From assembly GCA_028687995.1 (NCBI GenBank), contig JAQTZA010000011.1, positions 1 to 64,000 of the forward strand: DNA of 64,000 nt, in the 5' to 3' direction. A model generated the notes under the pieces. It ran no database searches. It saw nothing but the letters and a program-made list of their open reading frames with translations, and was not told the DNA's origin. Below, piece by piece: positions 4,633 to 32,771 of this stretch (its first letter is position 1; every line of letters starts with the position of its first letter). This DNA comes from Bacteroidales bacterium (GTDB lineage: Bacteria; Bacteroidota; Bacteroidia; Bacteroidales; UBA7332). The translations under genes and the position numbers were made by a program.

Positions 4633-6231
4633 ATGGATAAAAAAGAGATATTGAAATGGAGTGCTGCTACAATCCTAATTTTGTCGGTTTGCGTAGCTGC
4701 TTTTATTGTATATGAGCGGTTTGCTGACGAAAATTCGGCTGCCACTACCGATTTGATGCAGATTATTCCCGATCATTGCGATGCATTCTTGAGCGTTGAC
4801 AAATTTGAACAACTGGACTCTGTGGAACAGAACAGCATGGTGCAATCGTATTTGAAACGAAAAGCAAGTCCATCGTTGCTGAAAACGCTCAGTAAATTGC
4901 GTCCGATGCTATCAAAAGCAAAATGGAGTGATGTCAATTCTCATCTACACGAAATGATTATTTCTTTCCACTCGTGGGAAAAGACTCAAGCGGAGTTGCT
5001 TCTTTTCAAAATGGCAGCCGGCGATAAAGAAGAGGTTGAAAAGATTCTAAACGCATACTTTCAATCGTCGTTTACGCCATTGACTGAAAAAAATGCAGGC
5101 ATCACAGTTACTCACTATTACGTTTCAACAGGTATTAAATTCCACTGTTTTTTCTACAAAGGAATTTTTGCTGGTAGTTTCAACAATCGGTTGATCGATG
5201 AAGCCATCGTGCGGATGAAGCAGAAAAAAGGAGAAAACAGCGATCGGGATTTCATGGACATTGCTGCCGAAAGTCAAAAATCTTCCTCATTGAAGTTTTT
5301 CATTCGATTGAATGGAATTCCACTTCATTATGGAAATAACAGCGAACAGACCGACACCCTCAATTTGGCTGAATGGGTAGCCCCTGAACTCACTTTCGAG
5401 AAAGATAAACTAACATTAAGTTGCTACACTTCTCCTCAGTTTGAAAGTAAAAACTGGCTCAGTTTTCTGATTGGTCAAACTCCCGGTCGCCCTCTCAATC
5501 CGGCGGTGATTGCCAAAGATTGTCCGTTCTGCATCCACTACGGACTAAGTGATCGCGAGCGTTTCAATTTGAATCAACAGGCAGTTTTTGGAGTGCCGGA
5601 AGTAGATTCAACCCTATATCGTGCAGATTTTCTGAGCATCGATTCACTCTTCAATCAACATTTCGATAGCGAAATCAACATTGCCTATTATCCTGTAAAT
5701 GTACCGGAGAAACAGTATCAGAAAATAATCGTTATCCGACTGAAAAACGAGGAGGAATTGAATCAGAAGCTTGGCAAACTTTACGACCTAACGGGTGCGC
5801 TCAACGAAAAAAATGCTCCCGACAGACTTGGCAATTATGCTTTCCCTGATGCTTTTATCTCATCCGTTTTCGGTAAACTTTTCTCACTGAACGAGCAAAC
5901 CATTTATTGCAATGTGAATGAGAATTACCTCATTGTGGCGGCTCGTCCCGAAGTGGTAAATTCATACATCAAGGTGCTAAAAGCCGGACAAAATATCAGC
6001 AGCAAGATTTGGTATCATGAAGTCTCGGGTGACATTGATTCGAAAAGCAATCTTTACTTTATTGGCGGAGGCTCAACGTTTATCGAAGATCGCTACATCC
6101 TTCCATTTGGCATGCCGCATTTCTTGACTGAAAATCAATTTCTATTCAAAAACAACATATTTTGCTTTCAATTTAATGCTGAAGAGAGTTTTATCTATAC
6201 AAATGGAATCATAAAACACCTTAATCCCTAA
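4633..6231 (+). CDS. Membrane-anchored protein of unknown function (DUF3352-like)
   Basis: 532 residues. One hydrophobic segment at about 10-27 anchors the protein, with the large remainder outside the cytoplasm. The layout (anchor, then a long domain beginning with a LMQIIPDHCDAFLSV stretch, repeated alpha/beta blocks) resembles DUF3352 proteins of Bacteroidetes, but I cannot confirm this by eye. It has its own promoter and is followed by purU, which also has its own promoter element, so no operon partner suggests a role. Confidence 0.7.
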   Translation: MDKKEILKWSAATILILSVCVAAFIVYERFADENSAATTDLMQIIPDHCDAFLSVDKFEQLDSVEQNSMVQSYLKRKASPSLLKTLSKLRPMLSKAKWSDVNSHLHEMIISFHSWEKTQAELLLFKMAAGDKEEVEKILNAYFQSSFTPLTEKNAGITVTHYYVSTGIKFHCFFYKGIFAGSFNNRLIDEAIVRMKQKKGENSDRDFMDIAAESQKSSSLKFFIRLNGIPLHYGNNSEQTDTLNLAEWVAPELTFEKDKLTLSCYTSPQFESKNWLSFLIGQTPGRPLNPAVIAKDCPFCIHYGLSDRERFNLNQQAVFGVPEVDSTLYRADFLSIDSLFNQHFDSEINIAYYPVNVPEKQYQKIIVIRLKNEEELNQKLGKLYDLTGALNEKNAPDRLGNYAFPDAFISSVFGKLFSLNEQTIYCNVNENYLIVAARPEVVNSYIKVLKAGQNISSKIWYHEVSGDIDSKSNLYFIGGGSTFIEDRYILPFGMPHFLTENQFLFKNNIFCFQFNAEESFIYTNGIIKHLNP

Positions 6232-6289: not shown

Positions 6290-7168
6290 ATGACAACAAC
6301 TATTGACAAAACAAATCCGACGGCTATATTGCTGATGCACTGCCCCGACAAACCGGGACTGATTGCATTAGTGACTGATTTCATTAACACCAATGGTGGC
6401 AACATCGTCTATCTCGATCAGCACGTCGATCGCATCGAAGGGGTTTTCTTCATGCGTGTGGAGTGGGAATTAGAGCATTTCGTGATTCATCGGGATAAAA
6501 TCGAAGAGTATTTCTCGACACTTTATGCAAAAAAATATGAGATCACTTATCGTCTCTATTTCAGCGATTATGCTCCTAAAATGGCCATTTTTGTCTCCAA
6601 AATGTCGCACTGCATCTACGATTTATTGGCGCGCTTCATCGCTGGAGAGTGGAATGTTCATATTCCGGTAATTATTAGTAATCACCCCGACCTGGAGAGT
6701 GTGGCCAAACGTTTTGGTATCGAGTTTCATTGTATCCCGATTACCAAAGAGAACAAAGCTGAGCAAGAGGCCATTGAGCATGAATTGCTTCAAAAGCATA
6801 AAATTGATTTCATCGTTTTGGCCCGATATATGCAGGTGGTTTCCGAAGATTTTATCAATAAATATCCGAATAAAATCATCAATATTCACCATTCGTTTTT
6901 GCCTGCTTTTGTGGGTGCAAAGCCTTACCATGCGGCTTTTGAGCGTGGTGTGAAATTGATTGGCGCCACTAGTCACTACGTCACAACTGATTTAGATGCG
7001 GGTCCGATTATAGAACAAGACATCACCCGCATTTCGCACAAAGACACCGTAGAAACATTGGTGCACAAAGGTCGTGATTTGGAGAAAATCGTATTGTCGC
7101 GCGCTGTCGAAAAACACATCGACCGCAAGGTGCTAACGTATAAAAACAAAACGGTGTTGTTTAATTAA
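6290..7168 (+). CDS. purU: Formyltetrahydrofolate deformylase PurU
   Basis: Hydrolyses 10-formyltetrahydrofolate to formate and tetrahydrofolate, balancing one-carbon pools. An ACT domain takes up residues 1-85 (LMHCPDKPGLIALVTDFI), followed by the formyltransferase fold. The catalytic region shows NIHHSFLPAF near residue 198 and the later TSHYVTTDLDAGPIIEQD block with the catalytic Asp. 292 residues, the normal length. The ATG at 6290 follows the promoter element closely and begins just before the ACT domain. Confidence 0.95.
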   Translation: MTTTIDKTNPTAILLMHCPDKPGLIALVTDFINTNGGNIVYLDQHVDRIEGVFFMRVEWELEHFVIHRDKIEEYFSTLYAKKYEITYRLYFSDYAPKMAIFVSKMSHCIYDLLARFIAGEWNVHIPVIISNHPDLESVAKRFGIEFHCIPITKENKAEQEAIEHELLQKHKIDFIVLARYMQVVSEDFINKYPNKIINIHHSFLPAFVGAKPYHAAFERGVKLIGATSHYVTTDLDAGPIIEQDITRISHKDTVETLVHKGRDLEKIVLSRAVEKHIDRKVLTYKNKTVLFN

Positions 7169-28499: not shown

Positions 28500-28691
28500 G
28501 TTGACCCTACCCTCTTCCAAAGCCGGTCGTTCTGCGTCCCGCATTTACGGGACAGTTTATATTTAAAGCCCCTGCATTTGTTTGCAAATGACCCATCCCG
28601 AATGGAGTTTTGCTTTTAGCACTGATGCCGATAGCTATCGGTACGAGGACGCTACACCAAACAACCCACTACGGTTTATTGCACACTACGG
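28500..28691. repeat. Transposon-flanking direct repeat, copy A
   Basis: About 190 bases repeated at 29560-29763 in the same orientation. Both contain TTGACC(C/A)TA, an inverted GTCCCG...CGGGAC hairpin, TTGTTTGCAAATGACCCATCCCG, and the palindrome CCGATAGCTATCGG followed by GACGCTACACCAAACAACCC. Copy A lacks one arm of a second hairpin. The end of the tnpA gene lies inside it. Confidence 0.85.
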
Positions 28692-29137
28692 CGAACAGAG
28701 GAATCATTAAATTTTTGAAAACCAAATTTTTCTATCAACTCATTAAGCTCCTCTTCCCATGTTTTTTTAGCATGATGACTCTCTTGATTTTTAATGTAGT
28801 TTCGTACTTTATCCACCAAAGACTCCGAAACAGAAACAGCAAAATACTCATCCTGCCATTCAAATTTTTCTTTCAACAATGACTCTTTGTTTATCCAATG
28901 CGATGACTCTCCTTTTATTAATTGCATGATTTGTCTTAAAGTCTGGTCATCACCCAGCGATACCAAACAATGACAATGATCTTTATGTCCATTTACAAAA
29001 TCAATAAATATACATTTCTTTTTGGCATTCTCCCTAATATGTTTCCACATGGCTTTTCTTAACTCCGGTGTTTCCAAATATGGATACCTGTTTTTTGTGG
29101 ACCATACAAAATGAATGTAAACTTTGATAAATGGCAT
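28676..29137 (-). mobile_element. tnpA: IS200/IS605-type (Y1, HUH) transposase TnpA
   Basis: 153 residues from the ATG at 29137 (MPFIKVYIHFVWSTKNR); an upstream TTG start is possible. The HUH pair is in HKDHCHCLVS near residue 52, and the single catalytic Tyr lies in RNYIKNQ near 112. These enzymes move single-stranded DNA by recognising subterminal hairpins, or in the REP-associated form act on palindromic repeats. There is no TnpB partner. It lies between two direct repeats rich in palindromes, and further hairpins follow at 29160-29216 and 29437-29456. The gene appears intact. Confidence 0.88.
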
Positions 29138-29159
29138 ATTCTTAAATTTCAATTTATAC

Positions 29160-29500
29160 TAATTCGGCTAAAGCCTTTTGACTTCTATTATTCAAATGAA
29201 TGGGCTAAAGCCCAATCCAATTCATATTCTTGAATTTTTACTATTAAATAGCAAAGAGCCCATTCAAACCCATTGATTTTTAAATAGATAATTTGAATTG
29301 TCTTATACTTTGAATTGTCTTATACTTTGAATTGCCTCATGTTTTTATTTGCCTCCAGCTTTGTATCTTTTAATTGTCTCCTGCATTTGAATGGCCTCTA
29401 ATTTTGAATTGCCTCTGAATTGCCTCTGAATTGCCTCCAGCTTCAGCTGGAGGACAACAAATATATCAATTCCTTTTATTGGCTTTAGCCAAATCATTAT
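29160..29500. repeat. Hairpins and degenerate TTGAATTGCCTC repeats beside tnpA
   Basis: GGCTAAAGCC (about 29165) and GGGCTAAAGCCC (about 29203) are short palindromes just upstream of tnpA, and TTGGCTTTAGCCAA recurs near 29479. Between them, 29300-29440 is a run of about nine diverged copies of a 11-22 base unit built on TTGAATTGCCTC/TTGTCTTAT. It ends in a CCTCCAGC/GCTGGAGG hairpin at 29437-29456. This and copy B account for most of the 780-base gap; no gene is seen. Confidence 0.75.
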
Positions 29501-29763: not shown

Positions 29764-29928
29764 CTGGGGCTTATACTTATGGTAAATTATATTTACGTGT
29801 GTTATTAGTTTACCGCTGACAGTCGGTCGATTCCTTGCTTTTTTACAACAAAAGTAGAGAAATCAACCTTGCTTCTCAAATTTATTTCACTGTGCAAACC
29901 TAAGAGCGTGTGTTAGACGCTGTTTTTT

Positions 29929-30621
29929 TCAAAATCCAAAAGTCAATATTCTCTGTTTAAATTTTCCATTCACAATAATCCATAAAACCTCGTAACCACC
30001 AGCTCCGTCGCTATTAGAAGCGGAAATATAAATTGTATTAGTTTTTGTGTCAATATTGACTTTTGTGTAATCTAAGTTTGGTTCGAACAAATTGTCAATC
30101 GGTAGATTTATTTTTTCTTTTCCATAGGTTAGAGTGAATTGTCCATATTTATTTTTAGGAATATATCCGTCTGTCCCCCATATTTCCTTTCCATTTATTT
30201 TTTCCAAATAGCTCATTTCGTTTTTTGAAGCGTCACCTTTATGATATTGCAATTTGTTGTTTTGGGAATTGAATTTGGTCTTGGTCGCAAATAGTTTTAT
30301 TGAGTCTTTTTTAAAAACAACTGTTGAATCAGTTATTCTGCTGTAAGGTACGTTGTCAAATTCTTCAATGAACTTTATTCTGGAATTGTGAACATAACCA
30401 CTTTTTTCATGTCTAATAAAATCATAGTCAGTTGGCCTCCATTCACCTTCGGCTTCCAAGCAATATACGATTTGTCCATTAGTCAAAGTATCAATGACTT
30501 TACTATTGACATTTGGTGATTTCCTGACGTTCACAAAGCCGTCTTTGTCTGAAATAATTCCAAACTGTCCAAATGTAGTTTGGCTGTAAAAACAGATTAA
30601 AAAGAATAAAAATTTTCTCAT
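29929..30621 (-). CDS. Secreted SH3-domain protein of unknown function
   Basis: 230 residues with a signal peptide (MRKFLFFLICFYSQTTFGQ). Residues 22-90 form a bacterial SH3-like domain (DKDGFVNVRKSPNVNSKVIDTLTNGQIVYCLE), often involved in binding cell-wall peptides. The remainder is beta-rich and ends without a sorting domain. The gene lies within a unit bounded on the minus strand by GTTAGGTGCC (22 bases before the ATG) and GCGTCTAAC (after the stop), which are near-complementary, as in integron cassettes. Confidence 0.8.
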   Translation of the reverse strand: MRKFLFFLICFYSQTTFGQFGIISDKDGFVNVRKSPNVNSKVIDTLTNGQIVYCLEAEGEWRPTDYDFIRHEKSGYVHNSRIKFIEEFDNVPYSRITDSTVVFKKDSIKLFATKTKFNSQNNKLQYHKGDASKNEMSYLEKINGKEIWGTDGYIPKNKYGQFTLTYGKEKINLPIDNLFEPNLDYTKVNIDTKTNTIYISASNSDGAGGYEVLWIIVNGKFKQRILTFGF

Positions 30622-30651
30622 AATATCTATTTCTTGTTTTTTTTCTAAAAT

Positions 30652-30789
30652 GGCACCTAACGTTTTGGCGCTTGGCGAAGAAGCGGATTTCGAAGCACTA
30701 AACTGTCTGCCAGCACTGAACTTGATACGAAGCTCAAAACTTCATTTAAGCACTGAACCCGCCTTTTTGCCAAAAGCCTGTTATATGCA
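30652..30789 (-). other. attC-like palindromic site between two genes
   Basis: Read on the minus strand: GCATATAACAGG, TTTTGGCAAAAAGGCGGG at one end, and CGCCAAGCGCCAAAAC then GTTAGGTGCC at the other. Outer and inner arms are imperfectly complementary over about 40 bases, leaving a roughly 60-base centre. The outer boxes fit integron cores RYYYAAC and GTTRRRY (GTTAGGT exactly; ATATAAC partly). The stop codon of the HEPN/Toprim gene falls in the first box. No integrase is in the window, so the integron interpretation is inference. Confidence 0.5.
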
Positions 30790-31956
30790 GTTTTTATATA
30801 TTTCATCAAGTAGTTTCGTCAGTTTAGTAAAGTCATAATTGTCGTTCGCATTTTTTACGCTTTTGAATTCTCTTACGTAATCGTCCTTATTTTCAAGTGA
30901 GCCTTGATAAGCGTCAAATTCTTTGCTGTAATTTGTCCACCTGATTTTGGGTTTAGATTTTGACAAGTCTAAAAAACATTCTATCGCTACTGCCTTACCA
31001 TTTATATTTTCACTTGTTTCTCCTGTTGGTCCTACCGTTAAAAAATTAGTGAATTCCTCAAGTTCAGGAAGTTTCATAATTTTCATCTGTCTAGGCAAAT
31101 TAAGATTGTTAGTCTTGTTAAATTTATCCACTCCTTCTAGGTCATTGTCAAATAGAACAAGTGTTTTGTTTTGAATTCTTATGCTTGTCAAGCCCTGACA
31201 AAACCGATATAAATTTCCTGTGCCTGTGAATGGATAATTATCTTCCATATCAACGAAGGTAAAGAAGTCCAGAATGTCAGGTTTTAGAAGTTCCAAAGAC
31301 TTTTTAATAATAAAAGTGTCTGAACTACCTTCAGTTACAATTAGAAATTTATCAGTTTCCTCAACTCCTACAAAAATTTCTTTTTCGTTTGTCCAGCCTC
31401 CATCAATTACATCTTGAGTTCGCCACTCCAAATTCATTTCTAAGTTGTGAGGGTTTTCAATGAGAAGTCGAAGTGTAAAAAGAGGATCAAGGTTTTCAAA
31501 ATATGCACCTATATCTTTATCTTTAATATCAATATGTTCTTTTAAGTCTTTGAAAGTTTCGTTTAGGAAAATGTTCTCAATAACATATTCGCCTAAATCA
31601 TAATCACCGTCTTCTTTCTTGTTTTTATAGTCTGCAATATTAATTTTTGAAAAAATTGCAAGCATCGTTTCAAAACTAATTTCAGGTAGTTCTAAATAGT
31701 CAGGATAATTGTCGTTATGGTCTTGGAAATGGGTAATTAAAGTTTTTAGTGAGTAACCTAATAATTCAAGTCTGTTTTTTACCCTACCCAAAGAAGTCGA
31801 ATAGCCTGGTTTCAAAATAACTTCATCGTCAGCATAGTAATAAGGTATATCTTTTTTGTCTGATGGCAGAAATAGTTTCGAATAGTCCCTGAAACCAAAG
31901 TTTTTGCCCCAGTCAAGTTCTAATTCTCCTACTCCTAATGATATATATGAACCCAT
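30781..31956 (-). CDS. HEPN/Toprim-associated protein, candidate defence gene
   Basis: 391 residues. The N-terminus (MGSYISLGVGELELDWGKNF, then PYYYADDE) matches the HEPN/Toprim-associated N-terminal domain. A Toprim-like nucleotidyl-transfer/nuclease fold follows: acidic EGSSDTFIIKKSLE near residue 210, FVDMED near 236 and LFDNDLEG near 268 as the DxD strand. Toprim proteins with such partners are often predicted to act against phages. It is transcribed alone, with bases GTTATATGC 24 nucleotides before the ATG and GCATATAAC overlapping its stop. Predicted activity is not tested. Confidence 0.78.
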   Translation of the reverse strand: MGSYISLGVGELELDWGKNFGFRDYSKLFLPSDKKDIPYYYADDEVILKPGYSTSLGRVKNRLELLGYSLKTLITHFQDHNDNYPDYLELPEISFETMLAIFSKINIADYKNKKEDGDYDLGEYVIENIFLNETFKDLKEHIDIKDKDIGAYFENLDPLFTLRLLIENPHNLEMNLEWRTQDVIDGGWTNEKEIFVGVEETDKFLIVTEGSSDTFIIKKSLELLKPDILDFFTFVDMEDNYPFTGTGNLYRFCQGLTSIRIQNKTLVLFDNDLEGVDKFNKTNNLNLPRQMKIMKLPELEEFTNFLTVGPTGETSENINGKAVAIECFLDLSKSKPKIRWTNYSKEFDAYQGSLENKDDYVREFKSVKNANDNYDFTKLTKLLDEIYKNCI

Positions 31957-31979
31957 TGATTTTCGTCTGTGTTAAAATT

Positions 31980-32082
31980 GCATATAACATCTGTGTATAC
32001 GCCACTCAAGTTGTGTATGCGCCATAGCATGGCGCATATATCAGCCTTATGAAAAAGTAAATTATCTGAAATTCAGATAATT
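31980..32082. repeat. Cluster of palindromes upstream of the HEPN/Toprim gene
   Basis: GCATATAACA at 31980-31989 is the start box of the cassette-like unit. A perfect hairpin with arms TATGCGCCAT and ATGGCGCATA round AGC occupies 32016-32038; half of it, ATGGCGCATA, recurs at 32106-32115. A second perfect 23-base palindrome (arms AATTATCTGAA and TTCAGATAATT) lies at 32060-32082. No gene is seen in 31957-32226. Confidence 0.8.
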
Positions 32083-32329
32083 ACAGTTTATTGGTTTGAT
32101 ACGTTTATGGCGCATATCCATTTTGTTAATTTATTGTTAATTTTAAAAATCCAATTTATCTAATGGAATTTTAATTTGATCAAATCCTTTGTCTGTAATA
32201 TGCCTATATAATTAAGGTGCAAATTTCTAGAAGAATATACACTCTGCAAAACCCCTCAATTCCTCATCCCACAAATATACATACTTCACTTTATATTTTG
32301 AGTATTGGCGAATGGAAAAAGTAAACGAA

Positions 32330-32695
32330 ACTGTAAATTTTGGAGTAACTGCGCATTTTATCGGCGAAATAACGTTGTAGATAGGTGCAGCAGCGCAATG
32401 CAACGGAAGGGGATCGATGCACAAAACTACACTTAGGTAGTATAATGGTGTTATTACACAGCGTAAAACTCGCGTAACAGAGAACATTTTTCGAGTAACG
32501 TTGTACAATATAGCTCCAAGGTTATACATAACTGGAGTAACGTTATACATAACTGGAGTAACGTTATACATAACTAGAGTAACGTTGTACATAACTGGAG
32601 TAACGTTGTACATAACTGGAGTAACGTTGTACATTATTACTCCAATGTTATACATAACTGGAGTAACGTTGTGCATTGTTACTCCAGTAATGTTA
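32330..32695. repeat. 21-bp minisatellite (TAACGTTRTACATAACTGGAG)
   Basis: The core 32500-32695 holds about nine copies of a 21-base unit; older, diverged copies continue to about 32330. Because 21 is a multiple of three, frames stay open on both strands, reading VTLYITG on plus and VTPVMYN on minus. Neither has a convincing start context or a plausible non-repeat domain, so it is treated as non-coding. It fills the gap between the cassette-like region and the LuxR gene. Confidence 0.85.
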
Positions 32696-32771
32696 TCTGT
32701 TTTCTGAAAAATGGACAGTAACGAGGGAATACTAAACAGCGTAAATGGAAGAATGAGAAGTGATTTGAGCG

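Follow-up and report, generated by a model that had tools for sequence, protein, structure and literature searches.

Two consecutive gene units with self-complementary ends lie on the minus strand of a 64,000-nt stretch of DNA from a Bacteroidales bacterium (the window; assembly GCA_028687995.1, contig JAQTZA010000011.1), and they raise the question of whether they are integron cassettes and, if so, which recombinase moves them. The preliminary description of the window had proposed either integron cassettes with their platform elsewhere or another system that mimics integrons. Our analysis indicates that the units are very probably integron cassettes and that the window platform belongs to a Bacteroidia integron lineage, in which attI and attC would be acted on by a HARP-type tyrosine recombinase devoid of the additional domain of IntI.

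Both units were present as described. Cassette 1, including its attC (positions 30653–31988), starts with GTTATATGC (31988–31980), one base away from the position given earlier, and its end GCATATAAC (30788–30780) is the exact 9-nt reverse complement (9/9). Cassette 2 (29912–30661) starts with GTTAGGTGC (30661–30653) and ends with GCGTCTAAC (29920–29912), the two being complementary at 7/9 positions. The cassettes of a class 1 integron pass the same self-complement test. The palindromic site reported between the units proved to be a complete attC of 136 nt (30653–30788, minus strand).

Thermodynamic folding of this single site, the check recommended in the preliminary description, reached significance for neither strand (z about −0.9 and −0.6) and would by itself have failed, so that attC identity was decided by comparison across sequences. 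Rfam yielded no attC family. RNAalifold found no structure in a mixed set of attC sites because the alignment combined several lengths, which was remedied by using a single length class (24 sites aligned by sequence, window site included). In this alignment, 93.7% of the cells of a 20-pair stem were paired, and both sides had changed in 17 of the 20 pairs. The covariation score was 0.605, compared with at most 0.086 for slid structures, and none of 500 shuffles came near it. The motifs AACA and CGTT were invariant in all 24 sites. A simple arm scan (159 versus 55–58 by chance) was too noisy and missed the window site, and covariance models were used instead. The family model R1 scored the window attC at 132 bits. 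Model R2, built after removing the window site together with the three rows nearest to it, still gave the site 112 bits (E = 2.6e-24), the second-best score in the 64-kb window being 13 bits; the covariance-model search suggested earlier thus bore out the attC. Top-strand A–C mismatches were conserved at one inner position in 23/24 sites and at a second in 13/24, and the bottom strand turns both into G–T pairs. In addition, the bottom-strand arms had a better folding energy than the top-strand arms in 23/24 sites, as would be expected if the bottom strand were the substrate. A bottom-strand preference is known for IntI (PMC11641012).

The preliminary description had found no integrase or attI in the window. 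This did not hold, because a remnant of an integrase gene and an attI-like site occupy 32211–31986 immediately before cassette 1. The remnant comprises the last 21 C-terminal codons (LYRHITDKGFDQIKIPLDKLD; 32149–32211, minus strand) and was detected by tblastn with an intact integrase from the same genome (contig C7; 76% identity over 21 amino acids, E = 1.5e-4); contig C2 of this genome holds a remnant of the same type (71% identity). The attI-like site (31986–32038, minus strand) consists of a 23-bp palindrome, TATGCGCCATGCTATGGCGCATA (32016–32038), with a repeated half site, GGCGTATACACAGAT, followed by GTT. When the sequence upstream of cassette 1 was compared with its own genome by blastn, it aligned with contig C22 (73% over 238 nt) and contig C18 (77% over 143 nt), and both alignments stopped at the cassette start. 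The C22 alignment starts inside a tyrosine recombinase gene, at its 3′ end. At the distal side, cassette 2 is followed by a cut attC (29814–29920, minus strand) with the 5′ arm alone and then a repeat, which aligns with C6 at 97% across 76 nt and with C18 at 95% across 56 nt; this stretch gave no covariance-model match. The minus strand of the window therefore carries an integron platform in decay, in which attI is preserved, the integrase has been lost and the distal attC is truncated.

The expectation of a platform elsewhere was also borne out, as related platforms with integrase genes occur in the same genome. C7 contains an intact integrase homologue of 557 amino acids, followed in turn by a palindrome, by GTT and by a cassette whose ends are exact complements, and C22 contains a partial integrase with attI. 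Contig C4 carries an array of seven open reading frames (ORFs) with several attC sites. The array closes with a cassette homologous to window cassette 2 (77%), and the similarity falls at both cassette ends. Twelve attC matches were found in the whole genome at E values up to 0.0031. Genus relatives of the window locus were too distant for an empty-site comparison.

What kind of enzyme is this integrase? A search for IntI elsewhere in the genome, also proposed earlier, returned no protein above the IntI cut-off. The C7 integrase scored 220 bits against TIGR02249 (integron integrase; cut-off 265), the alignment being split in two where the region of the additional domain is missing, and 219.3 bits against NCBIfam NF040815 (site-specific tyrosine recombinase; cut-off 220). 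Both halves of the initial proposal hold, the mechanism being that of an integron and the recombinase not an IntI; the integrase found scores below the IntI cut-off and has no additional domain. Its nearest folds are XerA (5hxy) and VchIntIA (2a3v), the latter being the best match of the C7 integrase in the PDB, again aligned as two pieces around a missing stretch. The segment from KGxxDR to LRHSF measured 72–78 amino acids in 39/39 Bacteroidia integrases versus 115 in true IntIs, and a second measurement gave 65–71 versus 107–108. The additional domain of IntI, about 42 amino acids between patch II and the HxLRH box, is thus absent from the Bacteroidia integrases. The catalytic residues R...H-x-x-R...H...Y are present (R141, H230, R233, H256 and Y265, invariant in alignment A2).

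In a tree calculated by a quick method with the insert columns omitted, 72 Bacteroidia integrases formed one group (Shimodaira–Hasegawa-like approximate likelihood ratio test support 91) and the true IntIs another (support 100). Insert-less proteins of other phyla fell on the IntI side and host Xer proteins far outside. Derivation of the Bacteroidia integrases from IntIs by loss of the additional domain was not favoured by this tree, with moderate support in a quick search.

Every complete integrase also has an N-terminal extension built of units of about 65–90 amino acids, in one to three copies by eye. The Pfam HARP model matched 3/21 integrases (best E = 5.8e-7), a profile of the domain matched the SMARCAL1 HARP structure 4o66 at E = 0.042, and, when 390 genomes were scanned with the HARP model, matches fell inside integrase frames in at least six of them. 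We therefore tentatively call the domain HARP-like. SMARCAL1/HARP, an annealing helicase, is active in branch migration (PMC4035279), and this activity leads to the speculation that the HARP-like domain may help to read the folded attC. HARP-like N-terminal domains were also seen on integrases of metagenome-assembled genomes labelled Undinarchaeales, Spirochaetota and Firmicutes (L215, L219 and L212), which may be mis-binned; the L215 and L219 integrases branch near IntI in the tree. Viral contigs contain many Xer-like integrases with 37–50% identity.

The association of this integrase with attC extends across the class. Integrase homologues at E ≤ 1e-60 were found in 182 of 395 sampled genomes, with close homologues in hosts that include Aquiflexum, Rufibacter, Winogradskyella, Flavobacterium, Algoriphagus and Pontibacter. 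attC was present in 271/390 class genomes, namely in 166/178 of those bearing the integrase versus 105/212 of the others (Fisher P = 1.6e-22). Forty loci of the integrase-bearing set were read closely. In most of them, a locus-specific palindrome lies 20–150 bp past the integrase stop and is followed by a few bases and GTT, the integrase being 5′ of attI in the same direction as the cassettes. The first unit past the integrase, starting with GTT, had an exact 9-nt complementary end at 31/38 loci, compared with 6.3 expected. ORFs ran in the integrase direction in 121/133 cases (18 arrays), and there were loci with many attC matches each. Several contigs end shortly past the integrase, as repeats would cause them to do. 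The cargo was varied and included restriction-modification, GmrSD, Schlafen-type helicase, streptomycin adenylyltransferase and MerT genes. The system thus combines R and L boxes in an AAC/GTT hairpin, self-complementary cassette ends, an attI with insertion at GTT and one-direction arrays. It would function like an integron, although it lies outside the definition of an IntI integron.

Traces of the recombination itself come from tet(X) genes. An integrase fragment with 70.6% identity is present on about 50 Acinetobacter plasmids and adjoins tet(X3) in the records that were opened. The gap between this fragment and tet(X3) contains an attI, with TATACGCCATTTGGCGTATA, GCCACTT and GTT. Judged by sequence, the "TnpF" tyrosine recombinase fragment that neighbours tet(X3) represents the end of a HARP-type integrase with its attI behind it. 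On a Bacteroides xylanisolvens plasmid, tet(X2) forms a complete cassette with the start GTTATGTGCC, the gene and the end GGCACATAAC, an exact 10-nt complement, and it is flanked by attC sites scoring 65.8 bits before it and 94.2 bits after it (E = 1.8e-21). The tet(X2) and tet(X3) sequences are identical at 49/49 nt from GTT onwards and unrelated before GTT. One cassette is thus joined at GTT to attC in one case and to attI in the other, which is the trace left by site-specific integration. These junctions place tet(X2) and tet(X3) among the cassettes of the Bacteroidia integron system. The attC behind tet(X3) is cut, and its R″ does not match the start of its own cassette, so that this side has been rearranged. 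The tet(X2) attC recurs at a Riemerella tet(X) gene (94.7 bits), Escherichia coli tet(X4) retains only the start of a tet(X2)-type end, and a full-length integrase (56.8%) occurs together with an attC (118.5 bits) on a Chryseobacterium plasmid. The tet(X) loci with attI or attC context are at L362 4052–6222 for tet(X3), L366 1312–2836 for tet(X2) and L367 2290–2426 for Riemerella tet(X).

These data suggest the following process. The recombinase, with an Xer/IntI-like catalytic domain and one to three N-terminal HARP-like domains, would bind the palindromic attI just 3′ of its own gene. The attI would be cut between G and TT of GTT and joined with the bottom-strand attC hairpin on a circular cassette. 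Cassettes would enter as single ORFs in the integrase direction and be excised by the same route. Because only the last 21 codons of the window integrase are left and the distal attC has been cut, the window cassettes would be movable only in trans, for example by the intact C7 integrase, which we presume capable of this.

Several points weigh against this reading. The recombinase is assigned through adjacency and co-occurrence, and we infer the recombination step from the tet(X2)/tet(X3) junctions and from published gene uptake in Riemerella. The fold match of the N-terminal domain is weak, 4o66 being ranked second by Foldseek at E = 0.76. In one genome (G001), the integrase lies 225 bp from the first cassette and the attI is not clear. 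Finally, with the top three candidates of each genome scored, attC occurs in 105 genomes without an integrase homologue at the threshold used, and other recombinases may therefore serve there. These genomes, half of those without a close homologue, also speak for host XerC/XerD or another tyrosine recombinase acting on the sites while the adjacent integrase has a different role, as does the presence of XerC/D, with related chemistry, in every genome. However, the 3′ end of the integrase adjoins attI in most loci, integrase and attC co-occur strongly, and Xer sequences lie far outside the integrase clade, so that we regard this alternative as very unlikely.

It is highly improbable that the locus is a canonical integron whose true IntI acted in trans or has since been lost from the genome. 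The attC, the attI and the cassette logic do match those of IntI integrons, including the self-complementarity of class 1 cassettes, but the genome encodes no protein above the IntI cut-off and the adjacent integrases lack the insert without exception. Among 395 genomes of the phylum, IntI-type proteins matched in 108 at E ≤ 1e-50, 105 of them above the cut-off, and a single genome of the 108 belongs to the same class. Furthermore, R1 found no match in two canonical integrons, one of class 1 and one from Diaphorobacter. An IS200-like Y1 transposase gene near the array (28676–29152) could instead suggest that the units are not an integron at all and that IS200/repetitive extragenic palindromic-type ends, or other insertion units, merely resemble attC. 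We consider this extremely unlikely in view of the covariation along the 20-pair stem, the invariance of AAC/GTT, the arrays of unrelated ORFs and the attI beside the integrases, and it is contradicted by the tet(X2)/tet(X3) junctions.

The Bacteroidia system resembles IntI integrons (classes 1–4 and Vibrio superintegrons) in its attI, its mostly single-ORF arrays in one direction, its AAC/GTT attC hairpin, its probable bottom-strand bias (here by folding energy) and its self-complementary ends. It differs in that its attC sites form a separate family and in that the integrase lacks the additional domain (alpha-I2), has HARP-like domains at its N terminus and is encoded 5′ of attI, pointing the same way as the cassettes. 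The integrase orientation of the "reverse" integrons of Spirochaetota is likewise reversed relative to classical integrons (PMC9668308), but those are filed as IntIs, which according to that paper have the additional domain. Some plasmid copies of the Bacteroidia type are already named "integron integrase". Compared with SMARCAL1, the HARP-like domain is fused to a recombinase and not to a helicase. Integrons have been attributed to Bacteroidota in a general way (PMC8618304, PMC9668308); for Bacteroidetes proper, the IntegronFinder 2.0 survey listed one complete case, that of Salinibacter (PMC9024848). In Riemerella anatipestifer, also a Bacteroidia species, homology-free uptake of aph(3′)-IVb with a 140-bp attC-like 3′ hairpin was described in 2026 (PMC13148043); that study names no recombinase, attI or platform and calls the mechanism unresolved.

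The cargo of cassette 1 is a HEPN/Toprim gene encoding 391 amino acids (30781–31956, minus strand; Pfam PF18871, E = 3.7e-27), a candidate defence gene. A PADLOC search with the protein gave no match, and no homologues were found at E ≤ 1e-20 in 390 genomes of the class. The gene suits a pattern of defence cargo, because platforms of the same genome carry Hachiman, multiubiquitin/ThiF, DndB-like and HEPN genes. A second platform of the genome, on C18 (L070 840–5824, minus strand), has a multiubiquitin/ThiF/DUF6527 set and a Hachiman HamAB pair 3′ of attI with a degenerate attC between them (HamA, E = 2.8e-132; HamB, E = 1e-246), and a third, also on C18 (L071 3395–5550), has a DndB/DpdB-like gene and a HEPN-domain gene after an attI-like site. 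Cassette 2 encodes an SH3_3-domain protein of 230 amino acids (29929–30621, minus strand; PF08239, E = 1.6e-7). A sequence of 55–76 bp (GGTTGATTTCTCTACTTTTGTTGTAAAAA...) ends three different arrays distally (window 29814–29915, C6 (L074) 6795–6870 and C18 (L071) 5495–5550); it could be a boundary repeat or a common cut attC. Tandem repeats of GTAACGTTATACATAACTGGA lie beside the truncated integrase (32500–32700), and a run of TTGAATTGCCTC-type repeats lies near the array (29290–29450).

A literature search returned no description of a HARP-type integrase or of tet(X) as a cassette; it covered sources other than subscription papers and preprints, and novelty is provisional. According to PMC9668308 and PMC2426708, it is the additional domain that defines an integron integrase, and the HARP-type integrases lack it. 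We see the case for a broader proposal as evenly balanced: that integron recombination also exists in another integrase lineage, one in which the additional domain was never present, either by independent origin or as the ancestral state; that its HARP-like domains recognise folded attC; and that it is a major route of gene exchange in Bacteroidia, including defence and resistance genes, and the original mobiliser of tet(X). Recognition of folded attC without alpha-I2 becomes directly testable, and the HARP-type integrase is a candidate recombinase for the unexplained gene uptake in Riemerella. It also follows from the junctions that tet(X), which confers tigecycline resistance, is an integron cassette.
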